64,000 nucleotides of DNA from Microbacterium suaedae (GTDB taxonomy: Bacteria > Actinomycetota > Actinomycetes > Actinomycetales > Microbacteriaceae), in NCBI RefSeq assembly GCF_003254645.1, contig NZ_PNFD01000006.1, forward strand, positions 1 to 64,000. The letters run 5' to 3'. The notes under the pieces were generated by a model. That model was not told the origin of the DNA and made no database searches. It saw only the letters and a list, made by a program, of their open reading frames with translations. A program made the position numbers and the translations under genes. Within the stretch, counting starts at the first letter, position 1; each line of letters starts with the position of its first letter. This document shows positions 24,453-48,217 of the stretch, in pieces.

Positions 24453-24460
24453 CTAACCCC

Positions 24461-27522: not shown

Positions 27523-27523
27523 C

Positions 27524-28794: not shown

Positions 28795-28831
28795 TATTTT
28801 GTCTCGACCTCGGCGTTCTACCGAAGTAGCC

Positions 28832-32004: not shown

Positions 32005-32175
32005 TGGCCGCTGAGCGGAGGCTCGCGTGCATCACGAACGCTGTGCGACCGCAGCCGGCATCGGCGTAGATCAATCTGACTGCGTCAACTCACTGACCGC
32101 GCACACGATCGTGCTGCTCGGCGGTGTGGGAGTCGGCGTGGGCGTCGACTTCACGATGTTCACGCTACTGGCTCG

Positions 32176-33123
32176 TCAAGCCGTGCGCGCAGTTGCACGC
32201 GCCCACCATTCATCGACGGGCGGATTCTCATTGCTCGCCAGGATCTCCGAGTACTGGTTCGCATAGAGGCTATTCACAGGCGGCAGGTTGTGGACGCTCT
32301 TCGCGTCAACCAGCCAGCGGTCGTGCCATTCGCGGGTCCCATCGACGCGCCACTCGACCGTGATGCCCTTGAGCTTCATCTCCTCGCGGACGCGCTCGTA
32401 ATCTTTGAAGCTCCTGGGGGATACGACACTCGAGGCGTTCCCGGAGATGATCCGAACCTCAGTGACCTTGATGGGGTCGAGCTCGTCGACCAGTTCCTCG
32501 AATGCCCGTGCGCCGAAGTGTTGGTCTGCCCAGGTGACGACGCTGGTCATTGTGCGGAGGAGCCTCCGGAGCCGGGCTACGTTCGAGTAGGGAGTGCGCG
32601 GCGAGATCATCGCGCTCAGGTTCGCGACCTCGCCCGCCTTGGCAGCGCCGGGGTCGTCCGGAAGAAATCGGACGGTCTTTTTCTGACGCGAGTAGACGAT
32701 CACCCCGAGGTCGTTCATCCACCTAAAGGTCGGGCGCGCGAGGTCGGCGGTGAACTCGGGACCGACGACGCGATGGAGGGCGAGAAGGCTGACCGCGCCC
32801 TCCTCGGGGATCGCGGGATAGTTTCCAAGTTCCTGCGCAAGAACCTGGATCGGGAGGAGTGCGCGCAGCGCCTGGCCGAGGAGGCGGTTCGTCGCCTCAG
32901 CATCCCGGACGATGAATGCGGCGCGGTAGAGATCAACCCCGGCTTCCGACAGTTCGGCGTCGTTGCCGTCATCCGCTTTGAACAGGCCGGCAAGTTCGAG
33001 CACCGTCTTCGTGTCGTTGCCGCTGTCGACGTAGCCACCCGTGCCGACGTTCTTGATCCCGTCGAGGAGTACCTCCTGTGTCACGCTGAACAGGAGGTAC
33101 CCCTCATTTTCAGACGGACTCAC
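32176..33123 (-). CDS. PLD-like protein with HDRW motif
   Basis: 315 aa. The N-terminal ~150 residues look helical/winged-helix (YLLFSVTQEVLLDGI...). The C-terminal part carries VTEVRIISGNASSVV and WHDRWLVDAKSVHNLPPVN, resembling non-canonical PLD-like domains whose HDRFLI-type strand replaces HxK. GTG 33,123 is chosen because GAGGG lies 8 bp before it; ATG 33,150 would overlap the upstream gene by 41 bp. It overlaps the partner upstream by 14 bp, so they are co-translated. Function not recognised with certainty. Confidence 0.6.
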   Translation of the reverse strand: MSPSENEGYLLFSVTQEVLLDGIKNVGTGGYVDSGNDTKTVLELAGLFKADDGNDAELSEAGVDLYRAAFIVRDAEATNRLLGQALRALLPIQVLAQELGNYPAIPEEGAVSLLALHRVVGPEFTADLARPTFRWMNDLGVIVYSRQKKTVRFLPDDPGAAKAGEVANLSAMISPRTPYSNVARLRRLLRTMTSVVTWADQHFGARAFEELVDELDPIKVTEVRIISGNASSVVSPRSFKDYERVREEMKLKGITVEWRVDGTREWHDRWLVDAKSVHNLPPVNSLYANQYSEILASNENPPVDEWWARATARTA

Positions 33124-33970
33124 GCGAAGTGCCCTCGTAGCCGAGGGCATCGAGCACCCGCAGGACGTCTTCGACGGCCCAGCCGCTCATGTCAAGCTTC
33201 ACGCTCAGTGCAACGGGTGCTGCACCAGCGGGCAGGGGCTGCACCGCCGGTGTCGGGGGCACGTTCTGGACGCTCGGGGTGGTGTCCACGTTCACCCGAG
33301 GCATTTGGGGCGCTGCAGGAGGGGTGGCAGGGGCAGCGGGTGACGCACCCGGCGCGCCGTTGTTCGACGGCGGGGTGATCTCACCGGCGGGCTGTTCAAG
33401 ATCGGGAAGAGTCACGCCCGCGAGGTTCACCTGTCCGTCGTCGTTGACGAGGCCGGCGTACTTCGCACTGTCGACGAAGGTCTTCGCCGCTTCTGCGGCA
33501 TCCTTCTTGGACAGTTCGTACGCATACTCGTACTCGCTCGCGACGATGCTCGTCTCGGGGAGTGACCCGCCGTCGTAGCGAGTGAGCACCTGCGCATAGG
33601 CGGCGACGCCGAGCACCGCGTCCTTCAGCGCCCTTGAGTGCGCGGCCTCGTCGGTGGTGTTCGAGAGGGCGATGCCGAGAGGGGAGAGCTTGACGGTAAC
33701 TCCGTCAGCACCCTTGTCGACGACGTTGTACAGGCGCAGCGCACCGAGGCGCTTTGCCCAGGTGCCGCCGCTTGCCATCGAGTCATCCCTGCCCGTGATC
33801 GCGCGAGCGATAATCACGGGGGCCACGTCGGCCTTGCGCGCCGCACCCCAGATCTTCTGCGCGTACGAATCGATCGTGACGAGGCCGAGCTTCGGTACGC
33901 CGTTTTTGGAGCGCAGCCGCGCGGCTGCTTCGGCGGTGTCTTTCTGGTCAGTCGTCGTTGCATCAGTCAT
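33110..33970 (-). CDS. Unknown protein, partner of the PLD-like gene
   Basis: 286 aa. Residues ~20-185 are compact and mixed, with a winged-helix look (KLGLVTIDSYAQKIWGAARK, TWAKRLGALRLYNVV). Residues ~190-250 are a Pro/Ala/Gly linker, and the last ~30 residues (SVKLDMSGWAVEDVLRVLDAL) form a separate small helix-rich end. ATG 33,970 has CTGGAG 7 bp upstream. First gene of the minus-strand trio. I do not recognise the family. Confidence 0.6.
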   Translation of the reverse strand: MTDATTTDQKDTAEAAARLRSKNGVPKLGLVTIDSYAQKIWGAARKADVAPVIIARAITGRDDSMASGGTWAKRLGALRLYNVVDKGADGVTVKLSPLGIALSNTTDEAAHSRALKDAVLGVAAYAQVLTRYDGGSLPETSIVASEYEYAYELSKKDAAEAAKTFVDSAKYAGLVNDDGQVNLAGVTLPDLEQPAGEITPPSNNGAPGASPAAPATPPAAPQMPRVNVDTTPSVQNVPPTPAVQPLPAGAAPVALSVKLDMSGWAVEDVLRVLDALGYEGTSRESV

Positions 33971-34033
33971 GTATAAACTCCAGTCCCAGCTGAATTCCCA
34001 GCGATGCGTGAGAAGGCGTCATCGCCTTGCCAG

Positions 34034-34067
34034 TTTTACCGGTATTATGCTCGGTATTCCCGGTAGT
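34034..34067 (-). promoter_or_regulatory. Putative promoter/operator of the minus-strand trio
   Basis: On the minus strand a CATAAT -10-like hexamer (34,044-34,049) is embedded in repeats of CGGTATT (34,040 and 34,052) and CGGTA (34,061). No good -35 is seen. Repeats overlapping the -10 suggest repressor binding. A perfect 6-bp hairpin AAGGCG/CGCCTT follows in the leader at 34,013-34,028. Confidence 0.4.
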
Positions 34068-34462
34068 TCGCTCCTGGCGTACAAGGTGGGTTCCGCTATG
34101 ACTGCTACCGCTTAGGACAAGGCTCCTTTGCGAGGGCGTCATGGTAGGAGTAACCTCTGGTCAGTGGTTGAAACAGTGGGCGTAGGTGGCGGCGGATGTG
34201 AGAAACCCACACGTGAGACCTACGGCGAGACCCTTGGCAAGGAAGTCGGGAGCTTCGCGGTTTTCAACGGTAAACCTTCGAGCGGCGAGAATCCCAAGGG
34301 TGATCTTCGTTGAGTTGCGATGCCCCGGACGACAGGAACCGGGCGCGGTTCCGTCGACCGCGTGGCGCGGACGAGCCTTTAGCGGTCGGCATTCGGTCGC
34401 CACGAGTAGGGCCATGTACCTGTGAGCGGGACCTCCGTGGCTCCGATCTCCGCCCCTTCGAT
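34068..34462. other. Gene-free stretch between accessory genes
   Basis: 395 bp. Short frames exist on both strands (e.g. 34,161-34,415 minus) but none has a ribosome site or a recognisable product. Possibly decayed coding sequence. Confidence 0.4.
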
Positions 34463-35203
34463 CTAGGTCAAGGTAGGTGGCTCCGCGGCGATGTGGTCAG
34501 GCTCGTTAATGAACTCGAGGAAGCGTGCTCCCTTTGGCGAGGTGCGGGACTGGAAGATCCCGCTCCGGCTCATCATCGTGGTCAGCGGGATGGAAGCAAG
34601 CCCGGCACGGTCGAGGTCCGCGACAGCTTGAGTGACTGATTCCCGCCACACGCTCTGTCGCATGCCAAGCGCCGCACCGAGCGGGCCATCGATGCCGCCC
34701 GAGGAAACCCGGGAATGCGCCTCGTACAAGCCGCGGGCCTGAAGCCACTCCGCTGGGTTCTGGAAGTAGTGGAGCAGCCACACGTGCAACTCGTCGAAGT
34801 CTTCGACGAGGCGGACGAACTGCGCTCGCTCACTTGCGGAGAAGAGCGCCCACCCCCCGCCATTCGCAACGGCAGCGGCCAGCCGTCGCCGTTTGGATGA
34901 ACTCGCGGTCTCCGCGGCAGCTCGCTGAGCACGCGTGACCCCAGCTATGAAGTCTTCCGAGCTAACGACATCCTCAAGAGTTGCGGAGGCGTCGAGGCGC
35001 TGCATCGTATCCGTGAGTGCGCGGGCGATCTGAACGTTGAAGTCGTGCTGTCGCTGGGCCTGGCGAGCTTCCAGGGCGTATGCGAGCGACTCCGATGCGA
35101 GCGGCCCGACGGCAGGGATTAGCGACAGAGCTGCGCGCCCAGCGAATGCGATCGCGTCCTCTGCGGGCTCATGTGGAGGGACGAGGCCTTCGAGATCATT
35201 CAC
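34463..35203 (-). CDS. Hypothetical protein, DUF4393-like pattern
   Basis: 246 aa. N-terminal hydrophobic segment AIAFAGRAALSLIPAVGPLASESLAYALEA-type, then a long amphipathic helix region (RQAQRQHDFNVQIARALTD) and FIAGVTRAQRAAAETASSSKRR. This order recalls DUF4393/abortive-infection-like proteins that have an IPxxGG/GPL hydrophobic start followed by a helical FIxAxxxA-ExxxxKRxxLxxA segment. GTG 35,203 is used; the extra 34 residues of a longer frame (35,305) are low quality. Function unknown. Confidence 0.55.
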   Translation of the reverse strand: MNDLEGLVPPHEPAEDAIAFAGRAALSLIPAVGPLASESLAYALEARQAQRQHDFNVQIARALTDTMQRLDASATLEDVVSSEDFIAGVTRAQRAAAETASSSKRRRLAAAVANGGGWALFSASERAQFVRLVEDFDELHVWLLHYFQNPAEWLQARGLYEAHSRVSSGGIDGPLGAALGMRQSVWRESVTQAVADLDRAGLASIPLTTMMSRSGIFQSRTSPKGARFLEFINEPDHIAAEPPTLT

Positions 35204-35925
35204 ACGCTTATCTTGCCTCACGACATCCGTGCGCGTTCGGCATGTGTGACCGGTAGCCGGTGGCTGAACGTGCGTGGAATCGCGTCGTGAGCCCTGGGCT
35301 GTCATTGCGCGGACAGGACGAGTCGTGCGTGGCGTCTAGTGCGCGTCTGCACCGCCAGCTGCTTTGCGCGATAGCGGCTCCCTATGCGCACGACCACCGA
35401 TGCTTCGTCGGGTCGAGGCTTCCAAACGCGCCGAGCCGTTCGTCAACCTCCTGAATCCGAACGACACCACGCAGCTGGACATCGTGGGCGCTGGCCACCG
35501 ATCAGCGATCCGCCAGTCCATCCGGATCCCGTGCGAGCCCGTCAATTGTTCTTGGCGTGAGTCTGGCCTGACCCATCAGGAACCCACCTTAATCACCCGC
35601 CACGACCCGCCACCAACCGGCTACACTCGTACCAAGCGAACCGCCCGGTTCCCTGTGAACACAAGGGGATCCGCGAGTTCCCGAGACGATCGGCGAAGAC
35701 CGGAAATCGACCGGATCCTCCAAGGGGTCGCAGGCTCAAATCCCGTCAGGCCAGTCGCTCAGCGAGCCACCTCCAGCTGCCACACCACGGCGGTTGAACG
35801 ACCACGCGGATCCCTCCCCGTCCGTGTCAGGGCGCTTGACCGTGCTACTCGATACATCGCCGCCGATTGCGTACCGTCCCCGGATCCGAGATCCCCGTCG
35901 CGTCCGGCGCCCCGGACCTCCGTGG
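35204..35925. other. Gene-free junction DNA with tRNA-like remnant
   Basis: 722 bp with no supportable gene. Near 35,440-35,520 both strands hold short degenerate frames. At 35,724-35,748 lies a near-copy of the tRNA-Pro T-arm region. Beyond it the heme oxygenase gene begins, so the accessory region seems to end here. Confidence 0.5.
35724..35748 (+). repeat. Near-copy of tRNA-Pro 3' part (possible att remnant)
   Basis: GGGGTCGCAGG-C-TCAAATCC-C-GTCA matches positions 22,869-22,893 of tRNA-Pro at 23 of 25 bases in the same orientation. The T stem would carry a mismatch and no acceptor or anticodon part is present, so it is not a tRNA gene. Confidence 0.55.
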
Positions 35926-36594
35926 TCAGCCGACAACCACACCGCCCGGGCTGTGTGCTTCGGCGAGCTGCTCAAATACTTCGGTGTTGAACCGATAGGC
36001 GCACAGGACCTCCGCGATGACGCGCTCACGTTCGTCCTCAGCCCAGGGCGCGTCGTCCAGCTGCTCGCGGTAGGCGTTCTTGAACTCGGTCGGGTCGGCG
36101 ACATCGTCGAAGACATAGAAGCGGGCGCCGTTGGTGTCGAATCCGAATTGGCGCTTGATCACTCTGCCGATGTGGAGGCCGCCGGAGAGGTCGCCGAGGT
36201 AGCGCGTGTAGTGGTGCGCGACGAACCCGCCCGGCCACGTTTCCGCAACCTGCTCGATCCGCGTCGCGTAGCGTGCCGTCGCGTCGAGGGCGGTGATCCG
36301 GTCGCGCCAATCGGGTCCGAGCAGGAACTCCAGATCGGCTTCGATGGCGGGCAGGCGGGTGAGGCGGTTCGTGATGAATCGCGCCGCGATGGGATCCTCG
36401 CGCATCCGGTCCGCGCCGGACTCGAGGGCGGCGTAGATGAAGAAGTGCTGGGCGACGAGCGCGATGTAGTCGTCGCGCGAGCGCTCACCGCGCAGCAGAG
36501 ACGACATGAACCCGGCGCCCTCGCTGGAGGAGTGCGCGTCCTTCGTGCGCTCGCGGATCAGGGCCGAGAGGGGGAGGGGAGTCGTGTCTGTCAT
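35926..36594 (-). CDS. hmuO: Heme oxygenase, biliverdin-producing
   Basis: 222 aa. Proximal heme ligand His21 in RTKDAHSSSEG and the distal helix motif RYLGDLSGG (131-139) are the HO-1/HmuO hallmarks. It splits heme into biliverdin, CO and Fe2+ in the cytoplasm, freeing iron from imported heme. It lies downstream of a DUF2470 gene and divergent from the heme-uptake operon; iron boxes in the shared promoter region suggest iron repression. Confidence 0.94.
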   Translation of the reverse strand: MTDTTPLPLSALIRERTKDAHSSSEGAGFMSSLLRGERSRDDYIALVAQHFFIYAALESGADRMREDPIAARFITNRLTRLPAIEADLEFLLGPDWRDRITALDATARYATRIEQVAETWPGGFVAHHYTRYLGDLSGGLHIGRVIKRQFGFDTNGARFYVFDDVADPTEFKNAYREQLDDAPWAEDERERVIAEVLCAYRFNTEVFEQLAEAHSPGGVVVG

Positions 36595-36653: not shown

Positions 36654-36959
36654 TCAGTGCGGCCTGGGCGTGACGTCGAGTTTCACGCAGGCGGCGTCGT
36701 ACAGGGCGACGACTTCGCGGCGGACGGACGGCCGATCCGTGATCGAACCGCCAGGCCACGACACACGGGCCGTCGTCGTCGACCCGTCGCTGGCGACGAT
36801 GCTCCATTCGCCCCCGTCGCCATCGAAGCCGGTCATCGTCGCACTCGCGGCGGATGAATCGACGAACGCTCGAACGATCAGGGCATTGTCGTCTCGATGG
36901 TCGTCGTTCATATGCCGGAGCACGGCATCGACGACGTCCGCAGGGAACTGATGTGTCAT
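36654..36959 (-). CDS. DUF2470 protein
   Basis: 101 aa. FPADVVDAVLRHMNDDHRDDNALIVRAF is the DUF2470 signature (HMNxDHxxD). Such domains are often found with heme-utilisation and flavin split-barrel (HugZ-like) proteins. GAGGTGCC precedes the ATG. First gene of the operon with hmuO (59 bp apart). Likely assists heme handling. Confidence 0.88.
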   Translation of the reverse strand: MTHQFPADVVDAVLRHMNDDHRDDNALIVRAFVDSSAASATMTGFDGDGGEWSIVASDGSTTTARVSWPGGSITDRPSVRREVVALYDAACVKLDVTPRPH

Positions 36960-37001
36960 GGCCTGGCACCTCTTTTTCGTTCTCCGACACAGTCGCGCCA
37001 G

Positions 37002-37021
37002 ATAGGTTAGCCAAACCTTAC
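37002..37021 (-). promoter_or_regulatory. DtxR/IdeR-type iron box upstream of DUF2470-hmuO
   Basis: ATAGGTTAGCCAAACCTTAC closely fits the TTAGGTTAGCCTAACCTAA iron-box consensus. On the minus strand it contains a TAACCT -10-like hexamer ~40 nt before the DUF2470 start, so bound repressor would block transcription when iron is sufficient. Confidence 0.7.
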
Positions 37022-37094
37022 TCGATCTGATCGGCGCGTGAGTGTCGAGGTTGCAGTGCCCCGAGAAGAGGGTTGCGGGTGATCCAGGGGTCGC

Positions 37095-37123
37095 TTAGGG
37101 TGACCTTAGTTAGGTTCACCTGA
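37095..37123 (+). promoter_or_regulatory. Second iron-box-like palindrome, heme operon side
   Basis: GGTGACCT and AGGTTCACC form an inverted repeat around TAGTT, within TTAGGG...CACCTGA. TAGGTT could serve as the plus-strand -10 for the operon starting at 37,341. Weaker match to the DtxR consensus than the box at 37,002. Confidence 0.5.
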
Positions 37124-37168
37124 GTAGCGATTCGCCCACGGGCGCATCGGGGCTCGGAAGCAGAACTG

Positions 37169-37258
37169 CCTGAGGCCGGGTATCGGCCGAACCGAGTTGG
37201 CGGAGCGAGCGCCCTCCCTACCAAGAAGCAGCGCCCGCTCCCAGCCGCCGGCCTCAGG
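37169..37258 (+). promoter_or_regulatory. Structured 5' leader of the heme-uptake operon
   Basis: CCTGAGGCCGG (37,169) pairs perfectly with CCGGCCTCAGG (37,248), closing a 90-nt domain. Inside, GAGCGAGCGC (37,203) pairs with GCGCCCGCTC (37,231) with one mismatch, and ATCGGCCGA forms a small hairpin. A further palindrome CGCGCCAGTGGCGCG follows at ~37,265. The leader before ATG 37,341 is about 200 nt. It does not match cobalamin or other riboswitch consensus I know. Confidence 0.5.
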
Positions 37259-37340
37259 CTGACACGCGCCAGTGGCGCGCCTGAAAACAGCGGGGCCGCG
37301 CGGCCACGCTGATTCTACCTTTCGGAGGAAACGGAATCGC

Positions 37341-38960
37341 ATGGCAGAGACAGCATCGATCACACCGCCGTCCGTGCGCGGCGCACAGCGCAGGAGGCGA
37401 GCGGTCGGCCTGCTGGCCACCGCTACATTGGCGCTCGGAGGGGCGATCCTCGCCCCGATGGCCGCGCACGCGGCCACGCAGCCAGAATTCACGGCCGACG
37501 TGACCGAGATCGCGAACGAGCGGATCGATATCGCGATCGAAGGTGACGGCTACGGCGACGTCCAGGCGCTGCCGGGGCAGACCGAGCCGCACGTGTACTT
37601 CACTCTGACGGAGAAGGGATCGGATCTGTCGGAGGTGGGTCAGGCGGACACCGCGATCTCCGCGGAGGTCGCGCCTGACGGCACGGTCAGCGATGTCCTC
37701 TCGGTCCCGGGAGCCGAGCTGGAGGAGGGCACGGCGTACGAGGTGATCTCGTGGCCGTCCCGCTCGTTCCCGACGGAGGCAAACCTCTATGCCCGTGCAG
37801 ACGTCACGATCGACTGGACGGCACTCTTCCCCGCGGAAGCGCAGCCGCAGCCGGCGCAGCCGAGTTTCACGGCGGATGTAACGGAGGCCCCGAACGAGGG
37901 GATCGACATCGCGATCGAAGGCGCGGGATACGACGACGTGCAGGTGCTGCCGGGGCAGACCGAGCCGCACGCGTACTTCACGGTGGTGGAGAAGGGCTCT
38001 GAACTCTCGGACGTGAGCCAGACGGACACGGCGATCTCGGCATCGATCGAGGCTGACGGAACGCTCAGCGATGTTCTGTCGGTTCCGGCTGACGAACTGG
38101 TGGAGGGCGCCTCGTATGAGGTGATCTCGTGGCCGTCGCGATCCAATCCGAGCGAAGAGAACCTGTACGCCCGGACCGACATCACTATCGACTGGGCTGC
38201 TCTCTTCCCCGGCGCGGAGATCCCGGGTGGGGAGATCCCCGGTGAGGAGACCCCGGGGGAGGAAACTCCCGGAAACGAGACCCCGGGCGAGGAGATCCCC
38301 GGTGGGGAAGAGCCCGGTGAGGAGACTCCCGGCGAGGAGACTCCGGGGGAGGAGACTCCCGGAAACGAGACCCCGGGCGAGGAGATCCCCGGTGGGGAAG
38401 AGCCCGGTGAGGAGACTCCGGGGGAGGAAACTCCCGGCGAGGAGACCCCCAGCAACGAGACCCCCGTCACCGTCACGATCACCGGCGCCGACGGCGAGGC
38501 CGTCTCGTCTGTGACGCAGGGCGACGCCATCGAGTTCGCCGCCGGGCCGGTTGCAGCGGGATCGCAGTTCACCGTGACCGTCGAATCTGATCCTGTCGTG
38601 CTGGAGGCCGCGACGGCGGGAGCGGACGGCGTCGCTTCGACGACGTGGACCGTCCCCGACGACTTCGAAACGGGCGAGCACACGGTCACCTTTGCATCTG
38701 CGGACGGCTCAGATTCGTACAGCGCCGCTTTCGAGGTTCGCGCGGACGGAAGCCCGGACGACGATGCTCAGAATGACGGTGCCGCCGGTGGCGTCGCCAC
38801 CCCGAGCGCGGCGACGAATGGCGGCGGAGGGAGCGGATCCCTTGCCGCGACCGGCACGGACGCCACCAACGTCCTTGTGGGGATCGCGGGTGTTCTGACG
38901 CTGCTGGGAGCCGCCGTCCTGGTGGCGAGCCGCCGCGCGAGCGCCGGCAGCGTTCGCTGA
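37341..38960 (+). CDS. LAxTG-anchored surface protein of the heme locus
   Basis: 539 aa. Signal peptide (RRRR then LLATATLALGGAILAPMAAHAA, cleavage ~45). Two copies of a ~115-residue repeat (49-164 and 175-290) ending SYEVISWPSRS..NLYAR...TIDWxALFP. A PGEET/PGNET/PGGEE linker (291-373), an Ig-like domain (374-470), a Gly/Ser region, LAATGT (501-506), a transmembrane segment and Arg-rich tail; LAxTG is the class E sortase motif. ATG 37,341 follows TTCGGAGGAA. First gene of the operon. The repeat also occurs in the next gene. Likely passes heme from outside; direct heme binding is not shown. Confidence 0.82.
   Translation: MAETASITPPSVRGAQRRRRAVGLLATATLALGGAILAPMAAHAATQPEFTADVTEIANERIDIAIEGDGYGDVQALPGQTEPHVYFTLTEKGSDLSEVGQADTAISAEVAPDGTVSDVLSVPGAELEEGTAYEVISWPSRSFPTEANLYARADVTIDWTALFPAEAQPQPAQPSFTADVTEAPNEGIDIAIEGAGYDDVQVLPGQTEPHAYFTVVEKGSELSDVSQTDTAISASIEADGTLSDVLSVPADELVEGASYEVISWPSRSNPSEENLYARTDITIDWAALFPGAEIPGGEIPGEETPGEETPGNETPGEEIPGGEEPGEETPGEETPGEETPGNETPGEEIPGGEEPGEETPGEETPGEETPSNETPVTVTITGADGEAVSSVTQGDAIEFAAGPVAAGSQFTVTVESDPVVLEAATAGADGVASTTWTVPDDFETGEHTVTFASADGSDSYSAAFEVRADGSPDDDAQNDGAAGGVATPSAATNGGGGSGSLAATGTDATNVLVGIAGVLTLLGAAVLVASRRASAGSVR
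38246..38425 (+). repeat. 90-bp tandem duplication in the PGEET linker
   Basis: 38,246-38,335 and 38,336-38,425 are near-identical (a few substitutions such as CCCC/CTCC), each coding 30 residues of PGEET/PGNET/PGGEE units. High nucleotide identity points to a recent duplication. Confidence 0.85.
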
Positions 38961-38999
38961 CGACAGCACCTGCTGCATCGGCTCGCGATCCGATCCGTT

Positions 39000-39025
39000 C
39001 TCCGGCGGCGACACCGCCGCCGGAG
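39000..39025 (+). terminator. Intercistronic hairpin (attenuator?)
   Basis: CTCCGGCGGCG and CGCCGCCGGAG form a perfect 11-bp stem with a 4-nt loop between the two surface-protein genes, 40 nt after the first stop. No T run follows, so it may reduce rather than stop read-through or stabilise the upstream mRNA. Confidence 0.5.
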
Positions 39026-39134
39026 GACGGGCCGTGTCGTGCGGCAGCCGACGCGAAGGTCCGCGGCCGATCCGCGGATCCGCGATGAACGTATGAACGA
39101 CGACCGACTGAGAACAACCGGGAAGTGATGCACT

Positions 39135-41588
39135 GTGGCGAGATCCGTGTCCGTGCGCGGGGCTGTCAGCGTGCTGGCCACCGCGGCGTTGGTTTTCGGA
39201 GGGATGCTTCTTGCCCCGCTGGCCGCGCACGCGACGACCGCAGCGGATCCCTCGGTCGAGCCGGCGGAGGTCGCGAACGAGACGACACCTCCCTCATTCA
39301 CGACGGCGGTGACCGAGATCCCCGATGAACGCATCGAAATCGCGATCGACGGCGCGGGCTTTGGCGACGTTCAGGCGCTGCCCGGCCAGGACGGTCCCCA
39401 TGCATACTTCACGGTGATCGAAAAGGACTCGGATCTGGCGGCCGTGGAAGACACGCAGGCATCGATCTCTGCGAGCATCGACGACGACGGCAGGATCAGC
39501 GACGTTCTGTCGATCCCTGCCGAAGACCTGGAAGCATCCGGCAGCTACGAAGTCATCTCGTGGCCGTCGCGATCCTTCCCGACGGAGGCGAACCTCTACG
39601 CCCGCACCAACATCACCATCGACTGGGCCACACTCTTCCCGGCTGGCGAGCCGGAAAGGGCGGCTGTCTCCCTCTCCGCGAGCTCCTCCTCTGCGTATAT
39701 CGGTGAGGAGATCACGCTGAGGGCGAAGATCGCCCCCGACATCGCCGGCATCGTCACGTTCTGGAACGGAGAGGATCAGCTCGGCCACTCGGTGCAGACA
39801 GTCCACGGCACCGCCGAGATGACGACGAAGAAACTGCCGCTCGGCGAACACAGCATCACCGCCCGTTTCGTCCCGGAGGCCGAAGACGCTGCGGAGTCCG
39901 CCTCCGAGAGCGTGTCGATCACGATCAGCGAACGCTCGGCGGAAGGCAGTCTGCAATGGGGCGTGAAGAGCAACTTCCGCAGCTACGTGACCGGCGATAT
40001 CGCGGGCGGCAGGATCACCGTCGCCGGGGGAGCGGAGCAGGCTGACGGCAACGGGGTGCTCACCTTCCCGCAGGCTTCCTCCGGCAGCACCTGGGACGGC
40101 GAGTTGGGAACAGTCCAGTACGCGGGCCAGGTGACATTCTTCGGCCACAGTGGCGCCCTGAACCACACCATCGCGAACCCGTCGATCCGGATCACGGGCC
40201 CGGAGAGCGCGGAACTGCGGATCGACTACGACGGCAGCACGATCGAATTCGCGAGCATCGATCTCTCATCGGCCACGCGACTCGAACTCGATGGCGGAGC
40301 GGTGCGCTTCCGCAGCGCGCCCGCGACACTCACGCGCGCGGGTGCGCAGTTCTTCTCCTACCAGGGGCACGAGTTCTACAGCGCCGGAGAGCCCCTCGAC
40401 CGGGTGACGTTCACGATCGGGCAGGCCAGCGATACCGGCGTCGCCGACTCTCCGAATACCCAGGATCATCGCGCCGACGAAGCCCCGAATCCGCCTCAGG
40501 ATCCTCCGGTGCCTGCGACGGCGGAGAGCTCGGCGACGGCCGGCTCATTGCGGTGGAGCGTGTCGAGCGCGTTCGTCGCCTACACCACCTGCGAGGGCAA
40601 GGAACGCTTCGGATACAGCCACTGCGCCCAGGGCAGCGTCTCGACCAGCGGCGTCGGCGAGGGGTATCTCTTCCCGCAGGCGACCGGGAGCGACTGGGAC
40701 GACGAGAATCACACGGGAACGATCCGCTACTCGGGGGTGGTGAGCTTCCAGGGATACGGCATGACGATGTTCTCCGTGTCGAACCCGGCCATCACCGTCC
40801 ACAGCCCGGCATCCGCCACGCTGCACACGGGGAACACCGCGAGTTTCGGGGCCTCCTCGTATCCGCTCGACCTCTCCTCCGCGTCGAAGACCGAGGGGGA
40901 GAACGGGGCGGTCACCTGGACGGGCGTCCGTATCGAAGGCTCGCTCACGGGAGGCCCCGGGGTCGGCAGCTCGAACAGCGTCGGCTTTGACGAGCTGACG
41001 TTCACGGTTGGCGCGGCGAGCGCCGAGATGTTCGGCTCGACGTCGGCTGGCGACGAGGACAGGAACTACTCGGCTGCGGATACCGCTCCGAGCGTGACGG
41101 GGCTGGAAGTCCTCACCTCCGCCGAGCGGATCCACTCGGGCGGCCGCATCCAGGTGCAGGCAACCGGGTTCGAAGCGGATGACACCGGGGTCCTCGTCGT
41201 GCTCTACGGCAACGGTGACGACACGGGGCCGATCGTGCTCGATGAGGATGCGAGCGCCGACGCCGACGGTCTCGTGCGCTGGTCCGGCACCCTTCCCGAC
41301 GACGTCACGGGTGACCACGTCATCACCCTGCAGGGCAGCATCGATGCCGGTGCCGAGATCACGATCCTCGAGCCGGAAGGATCCCTCTTCGCAGGTACGG
41401 CGGATCTTGCTCCGCCCGCAGGCGGGGACGTGACGCCTGTCGCACCGGGGCAGCTGGCTCCGGCGGGCGGCATGGGGCTGTGGGAGTGGTGGACGATCGC
41501 CGCGAGCCTCGTCGCGATCGCCGGATGCACGTCGATCCTCGCGATTCGGCAGCGGCGCGCCGACCGGCCCGTTGTTGCGGCTGCGTAG
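39135..41588 (+). CDS. htaA: Surface protein with two HtaA heme-binding domains
   Basis: 817 aa. Signal peptide (~1-33), one copy of the SYEVISWPSRS repeat (53-170), an Ig-like segment (175-265), HtaA domain 1 (271-430, GSLQWGVKSNFRSYV) and HtaA domain 2 (470-630, GSLRWSVSSAFVAYT), a second Ig-like part, C-terminal membrane anchor (WWTIAASLVAIAG) and Arg tail. HtaA domains bind heme by a Tyr and a His. Domain 1 keeps both (Tyr284, His338 in GHSG); domain 2 keeps Tyr483 but has FQGYGM where GHxG is expected, so it may not bind heme. GTG start. Confidence 0.87.
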   Translation: MARSVSVRGAVSVLATAALVFGGMLLAPLAAHATTAADPSVEPAEVANETTPPSFTTAVTEIPDERIEIAIDGAGFGDVQALPGQDGPHAYFTVIEKDSDLAAVEDTQASISASIDDDGRISDVLSIPAEDLEASGSYEVISWPSRSFPTEANLYARTNITIDWATLFPAGEPERAAVSLSASSSSAYIGEEITLRAKIAPDIAGIVTFWNGEDQLGHSVQTVHGTAEMTTKKLPLGEHSITARFVPEAEDAAESASESVSITISERSAEGSLQWGVKSNFRSYVTGDIAGGRITVAGGAEQADGNGVLTFPQASSGSTWDGELGTVQYAGQVTFFGHSGALNHTIANPSIRITGPESAELRIDYDGSTIEFASIDLSSATRLELDGGAVRFRSAPATLTRAGAQFFSYQGHEFYSAGEPLDRVTFTIGQASDTGVADSPNTQDHRADEAPNPPQDPPVPATAESSATAGSLRWSVSSAFVAYTTCEGKERFGYSHCAQGSVSTSGVGEGYLFPQATGSDWDDENHTGTIRYSGVVSFQGYGMTMFSVSNPAITVHSPASATLHTGNTASFGASSYPLDLSSASKTEGENGAVTWTGVRIEGSLTGGPGVGSSNSVGFDELTFTVGAASAEMFGSTSAGDEDRNYSAADTAPSVTGLEVLTSAERIHSGGRIQVQATGFEADDTGVLVVLYGNGDDTGPIVLDEDASADADGLVRWSGTLPDDVTGDHVITLQGSIDAGAEITILEPEGSLFAGTADLAPPAGGDVTPVAPGQLAPAGGMGLWEWWTIAASLVAIAGCTSILAIRQRRADRPVVAAA

Positions 41589-41626
41589 CCCCCATGTCCG
41601 TCAAACCTCGGAGAGAGAAGGACCCC

Positions 41627-42487
41627 GTGAATCCTCGTTTCCTCATGCGCGCCGGCGCGGTGGCGACCGCTCTATCAATCGGTGCCGTGCTCGCGCCGCC
41701 CGCCGCGCCCGCAGTCGCGGACGCGGCGACCGGCTGCGAGGTCACCGGCGGCACTCTCGCCTGGGGCGTGAAAGAGAGCTTCCGAGCGTACATCAGCGGG
41801 ACGATCGCCAATGGTTCGTGGGAGACCTCGGGCGGCGCCGAGTACGACACGCCGCAGTTCCGCTGGAGCGGCGCGACGGGGAGTTTCGACCCCGAGACAG
41901 GAGTCGGCGCCGCGTCATTCGTCGGGACGGTGCATTTCACCGGCCACGACGGAGTGCTCGACCTCACGCTCGCGAACCCGACGATCGAGTTCGACGGGCA
42001 GGGCGATGCCGCGCTGCTTCTCGACGCGCGGAGCAACGATATGGAGGGCGAGATCGCCGTCGACGCAGAGCAGGAATGGGTCGGCGACATCAGCGCCGAC
42101 CCGGATCTTCCGCCGGGTGGCGGGGAACTGGTCATCGACGATGCGCCGGTCACCCTGACGAACTCTGGAGCGGGAGCCTTCGCCGGATTCTATGAGGCAG
42201 GGGCGGATCTCGATCCGCTCGCGCTCACGCTCGAGCTCGGCGCCTGCGATGCCGCCGCTCCCGCCGCGTCGGTGGACGACGGCGTGCAGGCAGAGGCTGA
42301 TCAGCCGCAGGCACAGTCCCTCGCCACCGCGCCGAGTGACGTTCCGTGGTTTCCGATCGGTGTGGGCGGCGCCGCGCTGCTCATCATCGGTCTCACTGCC
42401 GGCCTGCTGATCGGAGGCCGCCTTCCCCGCTCCGGTGTCGCATCGCGCGACGCGAGCGGCGGGGAGCAGTCGGGAGATGCCCCATGA
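41627..42487 (+). CDS. HtaA-domain heme-binding membrane protein
   Basis: 286 aa. Signal peptide, one HtaA domain (42-235) with GTLAWGVKESFRAYI (Tyr55) and GHDG (His107), then a linker and C-terminal transmembrane helix (FPIGVGGAALLIIGLTAGLL). GTG 41,627 is preferred over ATG 41,594 because AGAGAGAAGGA ends 5 nt before it. ATGA overlap with hmuT. By analogy to HtaB/HtaC it would relay heme to HmuT. Confidence 0.85.
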   Translation: MNPRFLMRAGAVATALSIGAVLAPPAAPAVADAATGCEVTGGTLAWGVKESFRAYISGTIANGSWETSGGAEYDTPQFRWSGATGSFDPETGVGAASFVGTVHFTGHDGVLDLTLANPTIEFDGQGDAALLLDARSNDMEGEIAVDAEQEWVGDISADPDLPPGGGELVIDDAPVTLTNSGAGAFAGFYEAGADLDPLALTLELGACDAAAPAASVDDGVQAEADQPQAQSLATAPSDVPWFPIGVGGAALLIIGLTAGLLIGGRLPRSGVASRDASGGEQSGDAP

Positions 42488-43611
42488 GCGCGGGATTGCC
42501 CCGGCGGCTCTTCACCATCGTCGCGGCTCTCGCCGTCGCCATGGCGTTCCTGGCCGGATGTGCCGAGAGTGGCACCGGCGACGAGGCGACGGAGTCCGAG
42601 CCCCGCCCCGACTTGAGTGAGCTCAACGCTCTCGACGACCCCCGCGAATATGAGGGAGCATCGACCGCGACGCTCACGCAGAACGAGATCCATCCGGTTG
42701 CGGAGAACCCAGAGCAATCGCTCCCCGCCACGGTCACCTCGTATCGCCAGGACGGCACCGAGGAGCAGATCCAGATCACCGACGCGAGCCGCGTCGTCGC
42801 CGTCGACCTCGCGGGCTCGATCGCTGCCAGCATCTGGGCGCTCGGCTTCGGCGACACTCTGGTCGGACGCGATCAGTCCACCACCTTCCCCGGGACCGAG
42901 GGCATCGAGGCGGTCACCTCGGGCGGGCATACGGTAAACGCGGAGACGGTCATTGGCCTGGCGCCAGACGTCGTGATCACCGACGGCACGGTGGGCCCGC
43001 GCGATGTCATCGAACAATTGCGCGACGTGGGCATCGCCGTCGTGTTCGTGAAGAACGACGCATCGTTCCGGGGGGCCGAGGAACTGGCCCGACAGGTCGC
43101 CGCGGTCTACGGGGCCGCCGAGGCGGGCGAGCTGCTCGCCGACCGCATCCGCCACGAGGTCGCCAGCACTGTCGATGAGGTTGCGGCACTGGCACCCGCG
43201 CAGGACGAGGATCGCGTGCGCATGCTGTTCCTCTACCTGCGCGGCGGCGCAGGCGTCTACTACATGTTCGGCTCGGAATCCGGCGCGGACGAGCTGATCG
43301 ATGCGCTCGGCGGGGTGGATGTGGCGGGCGAACTCGGCTGGGAAGGAATGAGGCCCATGACCGATGAAGCGCTCGTCGCTGCCGACCCCGATCTGATCCT
43401 CACCATGACTGGCGGCATCGAATCGGTCGGCGGCGTCGAGGGCCTTCTTGAGGAGAAGCCGGCGATCGCGCTCACTACCGCGGGGGAGCACCATCGCATC
43501 GTCGACATGGATGACGGCGCTGTTCTCTCCTTCGGGCCGCGGTCTGCCGAGGTGATCGATGCGCTCGCCCGCGCCGTGTACGCGCCACAGGTCACGGACG
43601 GTGACGGGTGA
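42484..43611 (+). CDS. hmuT: Heme ABC transporter substrate-binding lipoprotein HmuT
   Basis: 375 aa. Lipobox LAGC with Cys26. The periplasmic-binding fold of the BtuF/HmuT class: RVVAVDLAGSIAASIWALGFGDTLVGRDQS, LAPDVVITDG, GGVDVAGELGWEGMRPMTDEALVAADPDLIL. In known HmuT proteins His and Tyr bind heme; candidate ligands cannot be fixed here. Overlaps the genes before and after by 4 bp. Confidence 0.92.
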   Translation: MSAGLPRRLFTIVAALAVAMAFLAGCAESGTGDEATESEPRPDLSELNALDDPREYEGASTATLTQNEIHPVAENPEQSLPATVTSYRQDGTEEQIQITDASRVVAVDLAGSIAASIWALGFGDTLVGRDQSTTFPGTEGIEAVTSGGHTVNAETVIGLAPDVVITDGTVGPRDVIEQLRDVGIAVVFVKNDASFRGAEELARQVAAVYGAAEAGELLADRIRHEVASTVDEVAALAPAQDEDRVRMLFLYLRGGAGVYYMFGSESGADELIDALGGVDVAGELGWEGMRPMTDEALVAADPDLILTMTGGIESVGGVEGLLEEKPAIALTTAGEHHRIVDMDDGAVLSFGPRSAEVIDALARAVYAPQVTDGDG

Positions 43612-44690
43612 CGATATCCGAAACCACGACGCCTCCGAGTCCGCAGCTCAACGATTGCGCCGGGCGCGGCGTGCCCGTGATCGCGGTGACCTCCGTGCTG
43701 CTCGTCGTCGGCGCGGTCCTGGCAGCGAGCCTGGGACAACTCCCCATCGGTCCTGGGGAGATCGTCGGATCGATCGTGCGCGCCGTCGGGATCGACAACG
43801 ACGCGGCTCCGGACGACCGCCTCATCGAGCAGACGCTGTGGCAGATCCGCTTCCCGCGGGTCGCGATGTCGCTGCTCGTGGGCGCGACTCTCGCGGTCGC
43901 GGGCGGCGTGATGCAGGCCATCTTCGGCAACCCCCTGGCAGAGCCGGGCGTCGTCGGCGTCTCTTCGGGAGCCGCGCTCGGCGCGTCCGCCGCGATCGCC
44001 TTCGGTCTGTCGGGATTCGGGGGCTGGACGGTCGCCACCTTCGCCTTCCTCGGCGGGCTCGTCGCCACCCTCATCGTGTACGGAACGGCCCGCGCCCAGG
44101 GCAGAACCGAGATGGTCACCCTGCTCCTCACCGGGATCGCGATCAACGCGTTCGCCGGGGCGGGGCTCGCCCTGATCATGTTCCTGGGAGACACGCAGAG
44201 CCGGGAGCAGATCATGTTCTGGCAGCTGGGATCCATCAACGGTTCGCGCTGGAACGAAGTGTTCGTCGTCGCCCTCGTGGGGCTCGTCGCCGCGGCGATC
44301 GCGATCCGCCTTGCGCCGCAGTACGACCTCCTCGCCCTCGGCGACCGCACCGCAGCGCACCTCGGCGTCGGAGTGGAGCGTCTGCGCATTCTGTCGGTCG
44401 TGCTGGTGGCGCTCTTGACCGGCGTCGGCGTCGCCTTCGTCGGCATCATCGCCTTCGTCGGTCTGGTCGTCCCGCACCTGGTGCGCATGATCCTCGGTCC
44501 CTCGCACCGCAGGCTGCTGCTCGTCTCGGCGCTGGGCGGAGCGACTCTGCTCGTCTACGCCGATCTGCTGGCCCGCACACTCGTGGCGGCGTCCGATCTG
44601 CCGATCGGCATGCTCACCTCGCTGGTGGGCGGCCCGTTCTTCTACTGGCTTATTCGCCGCAACCGCCGCAAAGCAGGAGGGTGGGCATGA
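43608..44690 (+). CDS. hmuU: Heme ABC transporter permease HmuU
   Basis: 360 aa, FecCD/BtuC type with about ten transmembrane helices. Motifs: IRFPRVAMSLLVGATLAVAGGVMQ, NPLAEPGVVGVSSGAALGA and FVGLVVPHLVRMILGPSHR, the loop that contacts the ATPase. GTG start coupled to hmuT. Confidence 0.93.
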   Translation: MTISETTTPPSPQLNDCAGRGVPVIAVTSVLLVVGAVLAASLGQLPIGPGEIVGSIVRAVGIDNDAAPDDRLIEQTLWQIRFPRVAMSLLVGATLAVAGGVMQAIFGNPLAEPGVVGVSSGAALGASAAIAFGLSGFGGWTVATFAFLGGLVATLIVYGTARAQGRTEMVTLLLTGIAINAFAGAGLALIMFLGDTQSREQIMFWQLGSINGSRWNEVFVVALVGLVAAAIAIRLAPQYDLLALGDRTAAHLGVGVERLRILSVVLVALLTGVGVAFVGIIAFVGLVVPHLVRMILGPSHRRLLLVSALGGATLLVYADLLARTLVAASDLPIGMLTSLVGGPFFYWLIRRNRRKAGGWA

Positions 44691-45475
44691 GCAGCATGAT
44701 GCGGCCCAGCGCGCTGAAGGCGGAACAGGTGATGTACGGGATCGGCGGATCGCGCATCGTCGCGGGCGTCGATCTCGACGTGCGCTACGGCGAGGTGCTC
44801 GCGCTCGTCGGACCGAATGGTGCAGGGAAGTCCACGCTCCTCGGCTTGCTCGCCGGGGACATCCCGCCGACATCAGGGATGGTCGTGGCGGGCGGGCGAC
44901 CGTTGCCAAAGTGGTCTCCGAGGGAGCTCGCGCGAACGCGTGCCGTTCTGCTGCAGGCCAACCAGGTGGCGTTCTCCTTCACCGCACGGCAGGTGGTCGA
45001 GATGGGGCGGGCGCCGTGGGGCGGTACGGATCATGCCGCCGACGAGCGCGCCATCGCCGCGGCGATCGCTGTCACCGACACCGCCCACCTGGCCCGCAGG
45101 ATGTTCCCGACGCTCTCCGGAGGGGAGAAGGCGCGTGTGTCGCTCGCGCGTGTGCTGGCGCAGAACACTGCGGTCGTGCTGCTCGACGAACCGACCGCCG
45201 CACTAGATCTGCAGCATCAGGAACAGGTACTGCGCATCGCCCGAGACCTCGCGTCCCGCGGGCGTGCCGTGGTCGTGGTTCTGCACGACCTCTCGCTGGC
45301 CGCGGCCTACGCGGATGAGATCGCCATGCTGCACGGCGGGCGCCTCGTCGCCCGAGATGCACCTCGCGCGGTGCTCACATCCGAGCGCATCGAAGCCGTC
45401 TACGGAACGCCGGTGAACATCCTCGACGACCCCGGGACGGGGGCGCCGGTCGTCCTGCCACGACGCGGACTCTGA
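44687..45475 (+). CDS. hmuV: Heme ABC transporter ATPase HmuV
   Basis: 262 aa. Walker A GPNGAGKST, Q-loop VLLQANQ, signature LSGGEKARVSLARVL, Walker B VVLLDEPTAALD and H-loop VLHDLSLA are complete. It powers HmuU. ATGA overlap with hmuU; last gene of the operon, convergent with the VWA gene. Confidence 0.94.
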   Translation: MSSMMRPSALKAEQVMYGIGGSRIVAGVDLDVRYGEVLALVGPNGAGKSTLLGLLAGDIPPTSGMVVAGGRPLPKWSPRELARTRAVLLQANQVAFSFTARQVVEMGRAPWGGTDHAADERAIAAAIAVTDTAHLARRMFPTLSGGEKARVSLARVLAQNTAVVLLDEPTAALDLQHQEQVLRIARDLASRGRAVVVVLHDLSLAAAYADEIAMLHGGRLVARDAPRAVLTSERIEAVYGTPVNILDDPGTGAPVVLPRRGL

Positions 45476-45559: not shown

Positions 45560-48217
45560 TCAGTGCGATCCGTCTCGCGAACGGCGTGCCCGCGCCATCA
45601 TCGAGAGCACCAGGCCGATCATCAGGAGCGCCGCTCCGACGGGCAGAAGTGCGATGCCATCCGTTCCGGTGCTCGGAAGGGGCTCTCCGGTCGGTTCGTC
45701 GGACCCTGGACCGGCAGTCGGGTCTCCGGGACACGGCGCCGGCGTCGGCTCTTCGGGACACGTTGTCGGCGTCGGCGTCGGCGTCGGCGTGGGATCCGAC
45801 GTGGGCGTTGCCGTGGGGTCCGGTGTCGGGTCGGGCGTCGGCGTGGGGTCCGGTGTCGGGTCCGGTGTCGGCGTGGGATCCGGTGTCGGGTCGGGCGTCG
45901 GTGTCGGGTCCGGTGTCGGCGTGGGGTCCGGTGTCGGAGTTGGCGTGACCACAGGACGGTCGTCGTTGGTGACAGTGCACGTTGTGCTGCTGCCGCGGCT
46001 CAGGTTCACGGTGTCCTGATCGACGGTGACAGGCTGGCCAGCATCGTCGACGCAGCTCCACCCGAGACTGTCGTATCCTTCGGGTCCTGACTCACCCAGG
46101 GTGTACACCCCGGGAGTTACCGCGATGTCCTCAACCAGGGGCGACTCTGCGGCGCCTTCGAACGACGTCGGACCGTCGGCGGTCAGCTGGAAATCGGAAG
46201 CTTCCGCGACGCCGCCGTCGTCATTGATGACAACCTTGACGAGTGAGAGGAAGGTCGGGCATGACACTTCGTTCGTCATTTCGACCTGCGTGAACGGGAG
46301 GCCCGCGGTCGTCGAGTACGGCAGCTCCGCGTCGATGGGCGCGCCGTCGACCTCCGTTACTCGCGCCTGCGTGACGGAGCATTCTGCGGGTAGCTCCCAT
46401 GTCTCGTCGATCATGAGACTCTCGTCGACGTCGTAGCCTTCTCGGGCTTCGCCCCACGGCTGTGTGCTCAGGACCGTCTCACCGGGGCCGGTCAGCTCGG
46501 CCCGGGCCAGGAACTCTGCGGGCTGGGAGCCCTCGGGGTATGTTTCGCCATCGATCACCCAGACCTTGTCGACCACGACTCCGGCGGATGGCTGGTTGTA
46601 GATGGTGCAGGAGACATGCGCGGCATTCGGCACGTCGACGATGAAGCCGGGATTCGTCGGGTCGTCGACGTTCGTGACCCCCACTCGGTCCCGGGTTGTC
46701 GGATCGGTGCAGATGGCGTTCTGTCCCCCGGGGGAGACCATCGTGAAACCTGGCTGTTGCGACTCGGTGATCGCGATGGGTGCTGTCTCGACGCCAGAGG
46801 GGTACCCCACATTGAAGCTGACGCCACCGGTCCCGTCCGCAGTCGTTGTGGCCGTCGGCGGTTCGACGACCGCTCCCGTCACATCGGTGGTCGCGGCGAA
46901 CTGCCATCCTTCTCCCGCGGGTACGGAACCCGTGATGTCGTCGCCCGTGTTCTGCGCCGGAACGATTTCTTTGAAGACGCTGACCGAGCCCTCACACTGC
47001 GAGAGGACAAGATCGCGGAGGGCCTCACCGGCTGCTTCGTAGTCCACGGCATCCATGTAGTCCGCCTCGAGGATGTTGCTTCCGACGAAGCGGGTGGGGC
47101 CGGAGAGCGCTCGCAGATTGAGACGCGTCGTGTCGTCGACGCCGCTCCCGACGCCGACGGCGAGAAGGCGGGTTCCCTGCGCCTTGACAGCGTTCGCTGA
47201 GTAGATGCCGTTCTCAACGTCTCGGAAGTGGGTGGTAGACCCGCTTCCGAGAAGGGGGTCGTCGCTGAACCGTGTGGGGTTTCCGTCGGTAATGACAACG
47301 GCGATCTCGTAGTGAGGATCGGCCTGCGCGACCGCCCAGATGCCTTGATCCCAGTTCGTCCCGCTTCCCGTGGACCAGCCGGCATACGCCGACTTGAACT
47401 CATCGGCGGCCTGTTGAGTCGAGACGTTCTTCAACTCGGGCAGATTCGATCCGACGCTGGAGCTTGGCGAGGACCGGTCGAATGAGAACACAGCCATTCG
47501 GGACGGCGTACCAACGAGGGAATCCGTGAAGGTGTCCGCAGCACCCTTGAGCTCGGCCAGTTCGCTCGTGCTGACCGACGCGGACAGATCGAACACGAGG
47601 GCGATATCCAGGCCACACCGCTCGGGCAGTGGGGGGTTGGTGCGAGATTGCTGCCAGACTCCCTCAGAAGAAGTCTGCGCGCTACCGCTCGCCCCGGTCC
47701 CGAACATGAAGTCCGACGTCGAGCTATACGTCTGGCCCGCTTGGAGCTGCGGAGTCTGGAACCTATAGGGGTTGTTGACCGACCCTGATCCCGACCCCGC
47801 ACCCGTGCGCAACGAGGGATTCGTGTACCAGCCGGTGGGCGCATCGATCTGCCGTACCCAGAACCGGGAACCGTTGTTGTCGCCTCCGGATGTGGTGCCC
47901 GGAACGACGAAACTGCAGTCACCGTCGGCGTCGGATTCGCACACGCCCCAAACCGGGTCGACAGGGTCGGCCGCGTCGGCAGTCGCGAAGAGTCCGAGCG
48001 TCACTCCTGCAAGAGGGGTCACCGTGCGGGTGCCGCTGCGGTCTGCTCCCACATCGACCGTGACGACCGACTCGTCAGACGTGGGTGTGGGAACGCTCGC
48101 GGGAGCGATGTCGACATCCGCCTGTACGGGGGCAACCCCTCCGCCGATCCCCAACCCGACGCCTGCCACAAGAAGGGCCGCGAACGCTCGGCCGTATGCG
48201 CCCCGAAGGATTCTCAT
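45560..48217 (-). CDS. LPSTG-anchored VWA surface protein (pilus-tip-like)
   Basis: 885 aa. Signal peptide (~1-33); a SpaA/Cna-B-like start ([12 protein letters not shown]); a von Willebrand A domain from ~203 with MIDAS Asp210-Leu-Ser212-Ala-Ser214 (DLSAS); several immunoglobulin/Cna-B-like repeats (~430-760, each ending in a TNVDDP, NQPSAG or TNDDRP strand); a PTPDPT-repeat wall-spanning region; and LPSTG at 847-851 with membrane anchor and Arg tail. This layout is that of sortase-dependent adhesins or pilus-tip proteins. ATG 48,217 follows AGGGGGGAAA. No pilin or sortase gene is in the window. GC and codon use are somewhat less biased than the flanks. Confidence 0.85.

Follow-up and report, generated by a model that had tools for sequence, protein, structure and literature searches.

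In this study, we focused on a repeat unit of about 115 residues that occurs three times in two putative surface proteins of Microbacterium suaedae, encoded at positions 37341-41588 of the window (the whole 64,000-nucleotide stretch analysed: positions 1-64,000 of the forward strand of contig NZ_PNFD01000006.1, RefSeq assembly GCF_003254645.1). Judged from sequence profiles, the unit is very probably a divergent, cysteine-free neocarzinostatin-like domain. It is also highly likely to belong to the surface-exposed components of a system that takes up heme or iron. The reading that we favour as a whole, in which a neocarzinostatin-like surface repeat acts as the outermost docking module of heme-type uptake, is held with moderate confidence, and the assignment of docking to the unit, rather than spacing or iron ligation, is tentative.

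The three copies were located as follows:

37482-37835 (+): unit copy 1, subtype A, residues 48-165 of protein 1 (alignments and AlphaFold2 model)
37860-38213 (+): unit copy 2, subtype A, residues 174-291 of protein 1 (alignments)
39291-39644 (+): unit copy 3, subtype A, residues 53-170 of protein 2 (alignments)

Identity to copy 1 is 74% for copy 2 and 64% for copy 3. Local alignments of the copy pairs scored 449, 398 and 413, with 86, 75 and 79 identities across 115-117 columns, whereas the highest scores among 500 shuffles of each were 55, 60 and 61. The motif SYEVISWPSRS is present in copies 2 and 3 and reads AYEVISWPSRS in copy 1, and TIDWxxLFP is present in all three. The original prediction, made from the letters of this DNA, had described such a repeat twice in the first protein and once in the HtaA protein. 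These alignments bear it out, with the unit spanning roughly residues 50-164 and 176-290 of protein 1 and 55-169 of protein 2, and the limits then given (49-164, 175-290 and 53-170) were correct within two residues. No full copy beyond the three was found in a search of the genome, where the fourth match had an expectation value (E) of 0.26 and contained an internal stop. The same prediction had not recognized the unit as a named domain. This holds for the Pfam and NCBIfam libraries, in which no model names the unit, but the unit is distantly related to a known family, that of neocarzinostatin. A profile of the three copies alone returned one row from the PDB, the OSCP subunit of ATP synthase at E 0.058, which was not usable.

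The kinship became apparent from a wider set of sequences. An iterated profile collected 95 distinct unit copies, which were sorted by motif into five subtypes: A (28 copies, the window's own subtype), B (24), C (16), D (14) and E (11), with two copies unsorted. In stepwise hhalign comparisons, A matched B at 99.7% (110 columns), B matched D at 97.7%, D matched E at 97.3% and C matched E at 98.1%. Subtype E in turn matched four stretches, picked by the neocarzinostatin model PF00960 alone, at 96.4%. The controls, in which subtypes A-E were compared with HtaA and with three other immunoglobulin-like (Ig-like) stretches of the window, gave at most 4.4%. When a 61-row profile of the unit was compared with the PDB, the first six matches were to neocarzinostatin and macromomycin (E 4.8e-4 to 4.8e-3), with neocarzinostatin first. 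AlphaFold2, given 28 sequences, predicted an all-beta sandwich with two short helices (mean predicted local distance difference test score 93.5), and VIA-align against 997 chains placed macromomycin (Z 8.3 over 90 residues) and neocarzinostatin (Z 8.0 over 96) second and third. Tyr39, which is present in 94 of the 95 copies, aligns with a tyrosine of neocarzinostatin and, because it is also near-invariant, is taken as a residue of the fold.

PF00960 itself, with a cut-off of 25 bits, was above cut-off in 19 of 45 chosen genomes. Below, G with a number denotes a surveyed genome and L with a number a genomic stretch (locus) from one. In G195, G644, G698 and G775, PF00960 falls on stretches that are also matched by the unit profile. 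L101, from another genus, encodes at 6010-6471 (+) a one-domain protein of 154 amino acids that scores 47.2 bits with PF00960 and lies directly before an HtaA gene; as a single sequence, its PDB matches included neocarzinostatin, C-1027, kedarcidin, macromomycin and actinoxanthin. In the protein 1 orthologues of L037, L038 and L040, a subtype E unit stands between subtype A units, and the subtype E units of the orthologues in G141 and G033 gave 17.3 and 21.9 bits with PF00960, under the cut-off.

Several observations weigh against this assignment. The PDB matches span only positions 1-71 of the profile. Subtype A gave 1.7% (E 0.029) against the four neocarzinostatin stretches alone and 50% against the linking members, and A-C (28%), A-E (4%), B-C (5%), B-E (35%) and D against the four stretches (9.5%) were not significant either. 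Foldseek with the unit model returned nothing at E <= 1e-3 (best 3.8e-3). VIA-align placed the copper-only superoxide dismutase DR_0644 at the top (Z 9.1) and gave 8.0 for a spliceosome chain that is unrelated; a Z near 8 can reflect a mere common arrangement, and structure by itself is indecisive. A direct match between subtype A and neocarzinostatin was thus discarded as non-significant in two hhalign comparisons and, since the other long-range pairs were not significant either, the claim rests on the stepwise chain. Two pooled profiles (A2 and A3) matched neocarzinostatin strongly but include subtypes C-E, and are no evidence for subtype A alone. PF00960 was absent from proteins 1 and 2 at E <= 5 and from the whole M. 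suaedae genome at E <= 1. In another hhalign comparison, two of the control pairs reached 25-28%: the C-terminal stretch of protein 2 against a pooled neocarzinostatin set and against the Ig-like stretch of protein 1.

The weak direct profile match and a top structural match from another family are what would be expected if the unit were a generic bacterial Ig-like surface domain whose sandwich resembles neocarzinostatin by independent origin. This explanation is improbable in view of the stepwise profile links with their low controls, the PDB matches and the PF00960 matches on the same stretches. It also sits poorly with the orthologues in G141 and G033, where a subtype E unit among A units itself carries the sub-cut-off PF00960 match. 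Two other heme-related domains were considered. The unit is no CR domain, as the five subtypes gave 0.2-4.4% with hhalign and the genome's three PF04213 matches lie outside the units. For NEAT, proteins 1 and 2 had no Pfam row, and none was among the Foldseek and VIA-align matches listed.

The linkage of the unit with heme uptake, which the original prediction drew from this locus, holds there and well beyond. In Microbacterium, the three-copy profile (E <= 0.01) found the unit in 42 of 149 genomes, and HtaA (PF04213, E <= 0.001) was present in 65 of the same 149. The co-occurrence with HtaA domains that had been proposed as a check was clear: HtaA was present in 41 of the 42 unit-bearing genomes but in only 24 of the 107 others (Fisher p 1.5e-18, kinship ignored). 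In the sole unit-positive genome without HtaA, G065, the unit frame runs off the contig end. A unit match and HtaA lay within one frame, with the units in front, in 19 of 20 Microbacterium loci chosen from the matches; among the 19, L055 relies on a weak 25-bit unit, and the twentieth, L063, runs off its contig. With the 61-row profile, the unit was matched in at least 78 of 299 genomes (37 of 85 genera) of the family and in at least 89 of 394 genomes (36 of 138 genera) of the class, lower bounds because at most 15 and 11 candidates, respectively, were scored per genome. HtaA was found in 71 of 77 genomes retested at the family level and in 50 of 80 at the class level (80 of the 81 remaining genomes, with G807 left out).

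Locus context was examined in 101 stretches including the window, 91 of them unit-bearing; they were picked from match lists and are not a random sample, with two loci each from G644, G672, G398 and G305. Among the 91, HtaA was present in 57, a FecCD permease in 70, a PF01497-type lipoprotein in 71 and heme oxygenase in 24. The original prediction had set against itself the case of a known domain, unrelated to heme and widespread outside such loci. The superfamily is indeed a known one, yet 77 of the 91 loci contain HtaA or FecCD, a proportion that applies to loci chosen by their matches. The 14 loci with neither HtaA nor FecCD in the examined stretch count against a role in heme-type uptake. 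HtaA was missing from the examined stretch of 34 loci, 20 of which have a FecCD permease. Such absence depends on the profile used: with an HtaA profile built for this analysis, CR-like stretches were detected in G280, G332, G533, G749 and G808, genomes with no HtaA by Pfam. In L072, Pfam identified a FecCD permease and a PF01497 protein near unit genes and, in L077, a PF01497 lipoprotein near neocarzinostatin-like genes; in neither genome was HtaA found by Pfam. The unit may therefore be tied to the importer and not to HtaA itself.

The genes and domains of the window's own locus are the following:

35926-36594 (-): heme oxygenase, divergent upstream (PF01126, 193.5 bits)
36654-36959 (-): DUF2470 protein, divergent upstream (PF10615, 52.8 bits)
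37341-38960 (+): protein 1, 539 amino acids, with signal region, two units, PGEETP repeats, Ig-like stretch and LAATG anchor
38841-38957 (+): sortase-type anchor of protein 1, residues 501-539 (TIGR01167, 16.0 bits, cut-off 15.9; NF058582, 19.2 bits, cut-off 27)
39135-41588 (+): protein 2, 817 amino acids, with one unit, Big_3_5, two HtaA domains and a C-terminal membrane stretch (by eye)
39672-39926 (+): Big_3_5 domain of protein 2, residues 180-264 (44.3 bits)
39945-40415 (+): HtaA (CR) domain 1 of protein 2 (116.2 bits)
40542-41033 (+): HtaA (CR) domain 2 of protein 2, weaker (35.4 bits)
41594-42487 (+): protein 3, with one HtaA domain (41747-42226) and a membrane stretch
42484-43611 (+): Peripla_BP_2 (PF01497) lipoprotein, HmuT-like (Pfam)
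43608-44690 (+): FecCD permease (Pfam)
44687-45475 (+): ABC ATPase (Pfam)

The suggested surface display is supported by the signal peptide, the PGEETP repeats and the LAATG anchor of protein 1, together with a class E sortase (NF033747, 221 bits), the one sortase found in the genome. The signal peptide, hydrophobic stretch and basic tail of protein 1 were recognised by eye, and the protein has the make-up of a sortase-anchored one, with TIGR01167 barely above its cut-off. According to PMC12494546, HtaA domains bind heme through a helix tyrosine and a helper His or Tyr. The heme-ligand tyrosine is kept in all three CR domains of the window (motifs P2 280, P2 479 and P3 62), and the helper place reads GH in two of them and GY in one. 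The latter is HtaA domain 2 of protein 2 (40542-41033), with Tyr at the usual place of the helper His, as described for ChtA.

FecCD permeases and PF01497 lipoproteins serve several substrates. At this locus, the NCBIfam equivalogs for vitamin B12 and for heme were all far under cut-off, and both this and the 34 loci without HtaA would be compatible with import of a non-heme substrate, such as a siderophore or cobalamin, which the units would then serve. However, the HtaA domains of the window keep their heme-ligand tyrosines and a heme oxygenase lies divergently upstream, and we regard a non-heme substrate as very improbable.

In the favoured reading, the two units of protein 1 would sit on a stalk that crosses the cell wall and is anchored by the class E sortase, and the single unit of protein 2 would be placed outside its two HtaA domains. 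The HtaA domains would take heme by their tyrosines and hand it to the binding lipoprotein and on to the FecCD importer. The unit would face outward and contact the heme source, a hemoprotein or heme aggregate, without ligating the heme iron. Conservation points to the part of the unit that may be involved. In all 28 subtype A copies, Y86, W91-S95 (the WPSRS loop), P97, R105, W112, L115 and P117 are invariant. Position 94 of the 95 aligned copies is Arg in subtype A (28/28), His in B (24/24), D (14/14) and E (11/11), and a gap in C. Since the WPSRS loop is invariant in subtype A and position 94 switches between Arg and His by subtype, the loop is the likely working site. From these patterns, it may provide a heme ligand in B, D and E, and more likely a docking surface in subtype A. 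Two points count against docking: the strictly conserved loop is its only hint, and the invariant His of B, D and E fits direct binding at least as well in those subtypes.

For the heme- or hemoprotein-binding role that the original prediction suggested for the unit, the evidence points both ways. No His, Cys or Met is invariant in subtype A, and Tyr39 and Tyr86 (the latter in 78 of the 95 copies) are strand residues, yet the loop position that is Arg in A is invariantly His in the sister subtypes B, D and E, and for this reason direct heme binding stays in consideration. In that case, heme or a porphyrin would occupy a cleft comparable to the chromophore cleft of neocarzinostatin, with the loop His of B, D and E as a possible axial ligand. 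The kinship to a family of small-molecule carriers, the recurrence of the unit at heme-type loci and the His94 of every B, D and E copy are consistent with this. The window's own subtype, however, has Arg94 throughout. Its His37 occurs in 23 of 28 copies and in no other subtype, its methionines are few and its 28 copies contain no cysteine (subtype E has a mean of two). Moreover, the HtaA domains of the same proteins already provide tyrosine ligands. On balance, direct binding is rather doubtful.

The units might instead be pure spacers that bind nothing and, as rigid beads, keep the HtaA domains or some other surface element further out. The number of unit matches per protein varies from 1 to 7, the subtypes are shuffled and the arrays lie mostly N-terminal to HtaA (L041, in which HtaA precedes the unit array, is an exception), as might be expected of spacers, and protein 1 consists of units, stalk and anchor without HtaA. 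A spacer, on the other hand, needs no strictly conserved loop, yet the subtype A residues listed above are invariant and His94 is present in every B, D and E copy, and the one-domain version in L101 has nothing to space. We consider this alternative doubtful, and docking, with the loop as its contact surface, is tentatively preferred.

A conserved RNA precedes protein 1, and a candidate regulatory site lies further upstream:

37160-37343 (+): conserved structured leader RNA, the last three bases being the protein 1 start codon
37002-37020 (+): DtxR-like site (three mismatches to the consensus; one match, none in 100 shuffles)

The 145 nucleotides 5' of the protein 1 start are 95-96% identical to those of L037 and L038 and 81% identical to those of L039, whereas third codon positions of unit copy 1, compared between the same sequences, agree at 59-66%. 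A four-sequence model of 37160-37343 matched at E <= 1e-36, at one place each, in at least six of 366 Microbacterium genomes (G000, G026, G141, G033, G840 and G850). Among 398 genomes of the family, it matched in at least one further genus (G305, E 4.5e-15). Both counts are lower bounds, obtained with strict filters and 6-7 candidates scored. In the window, L037, L038, L039, L090 and L091, the 3' end of the leader is the start codon of the unit gene; in the G305 locus (L096), it is that of an HtaA gene. Matches in G112, G051 and G422 (20.9-21.9 bits) were treated as chance; in the Microbacterium search, two weaker matches at E 0.03-0.05 were set aside.

Across the seven sequences, 93.2% of cells pair, in an alignment that was fitted to the model and so favours it. 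Four pairs change on both sides, which 41 of 500 shuffles equalled, and the covariation score was reached by none of the 500. In an independent alignment, helices one to five were retained and five pairs differed at both positions; the final stem ahead of the start codon was lost, and the covariation term (0.19) was not favourable. The six leaders alone gave weaker covariation (18 of 500 shuffles), and the fold of the window leader was only moderately better than that of shuffles (z -2.2). The 4227 covariance models of Rfam gave no match at E <= 1 in 36900-37400 of the window, and on the L096 homologue only CC0196 on the opposite strand, at 17.5 bits where the gathering score is 35. In L096, gaps of one base within the conserved loop would shift any frame, and the six leaders share no short frame with a common start; a protein extension and a leader peptide were thus both rejected. 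Neither the leader nor the unit matched known plasmids, and no viral contig contained the exact 24-base leader loop pattern. A hairpin before the neocarzinostatin gene of L101 was too weak (17 bits, E 0.029) to be accepted as a relative.

We conclude that the leader is probably a real cis-acting RNA. That it is a riboswitch is possible if doubtful, and a heme riboswitch is distinctly unlikely; no paper was found under heme-riboswitch terms in the PubMed Central subset searched. A scheme joining both elements, in which the chromophore-carrier fold of neocarzinostatin has become, in actinobacteria, a second heme-capture domain beside CR, seems unlikely. Tandem units on the cell wall would then grip heme, a porphyrin or a hemoprotein by the loop and pass it to the CR domains, and in this clade the leader, folding just ahead of the start codon, would sense iron or heme status and set the synthesis of the unit protein.

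The DtxR-like site is located between the divergent genes; with a looser DtxR pattern there was no site at 37002-37020, and the window total was 2 against 2.6 expected. Just 5' of the leader, at 37094-37123, a 30-base run with repeated TTAGG/CCTTA-like half-sites is conserved in L037 and L038 and partly in L039, and by eye resembles overlapping iron-regulator sites. The gap between proteins 1 and 2 has a predicted 17-pair hairpin with G-T pairs (38994-39031), and hairpins of similar length occur in the matching gap of L037 and L038. In L090 (G033), a TrwC relaxase frame (904-1845, -) lies near the leader, close to the contig end, and may point to transfer of this locus.

Adjoining the heme locus, the guanine plus cytosine content is 60-64% at 24001-36000 and 67-72% across the preceding 24 kb. 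Within this stretch, a probable island, lie a serine recombinase (29518-30417) and, at 30856-35305, four genes that have no Pfam or PADLOC match. No support emerged for a defence system among these low-GC neighbours. On the other side, a gene convergent with the heme importer genes (45560-48286, -) encodes a 908-amino-acid surface protein that matches SpaA_2 (76.9 bits), has VWA regions below threshold and ends in an LPSTG-like sequence.

If the favoured reading is correct, the repeats of many HtaA surface proteins of actinobacteria, so far uncharacterised, would gain an identity and a tie to a family whose members hold small hydrophobic molecules. The parts of these heme relays beyond the CR domains would become directly testable, starting from Arg/His 94, and the leader, which has no Rfam entry, would become a candidate for cis-acting RNA control of surface proteins in heme uptake. 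In the PubMed Central subset, which leaves most subscription journals outside, we found no paper joining neocarzinostatin with HtaA. Both the neocarzinostatin superfamily and the CR system are already known, and the nearest precedent found is CwpG of Actinoplanes missouriensis.

Among known systems, the NEAT repeats of the Isd systems of Bacillota are an analogy only: these too are small repeats on heme-relay surface proteins (PMC7815599), but proteins 1 and 2 have no NEAT row in Pfam. The HtaA/CR domain (PF04213) of the Corynebacterium Hta/Cht system occurs in the same proteins and operon as the unit, and the three CR domains of the window keep its tyrosine and two of them its helper His. Neither "neocarzinostatin" nor "immunoglobulin" appears in the main text, as available, of PMC12494546 on that system. 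CwpG, a substrate of a class E sortase, is likewise an actinomycete surface protein that bears a neocarzinostatin-like domain; it differs in that the available part of PMC13251363 names one such domain and mentions no heme context. The neocarzinostatin family (PF00960: the neocarzinostatin, macromomycin, actinoxanthin, kedarcidin and C-1027 apoproteins) resembles the unit in its beta-sandwich, predicted for the unit at a like length, and through the profile chain, and relatives of the unit give PF00960 matches on the same stretches. Neocarzinostatin holds its chromophore in a cleft, and the family has conserved disulfides, whereas the units of the window have no cysteines and no PF00960 match. 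Unlike neocarzinostatin, they are tandem parts of large surface proteins encoded at a heme-type uptake locus.

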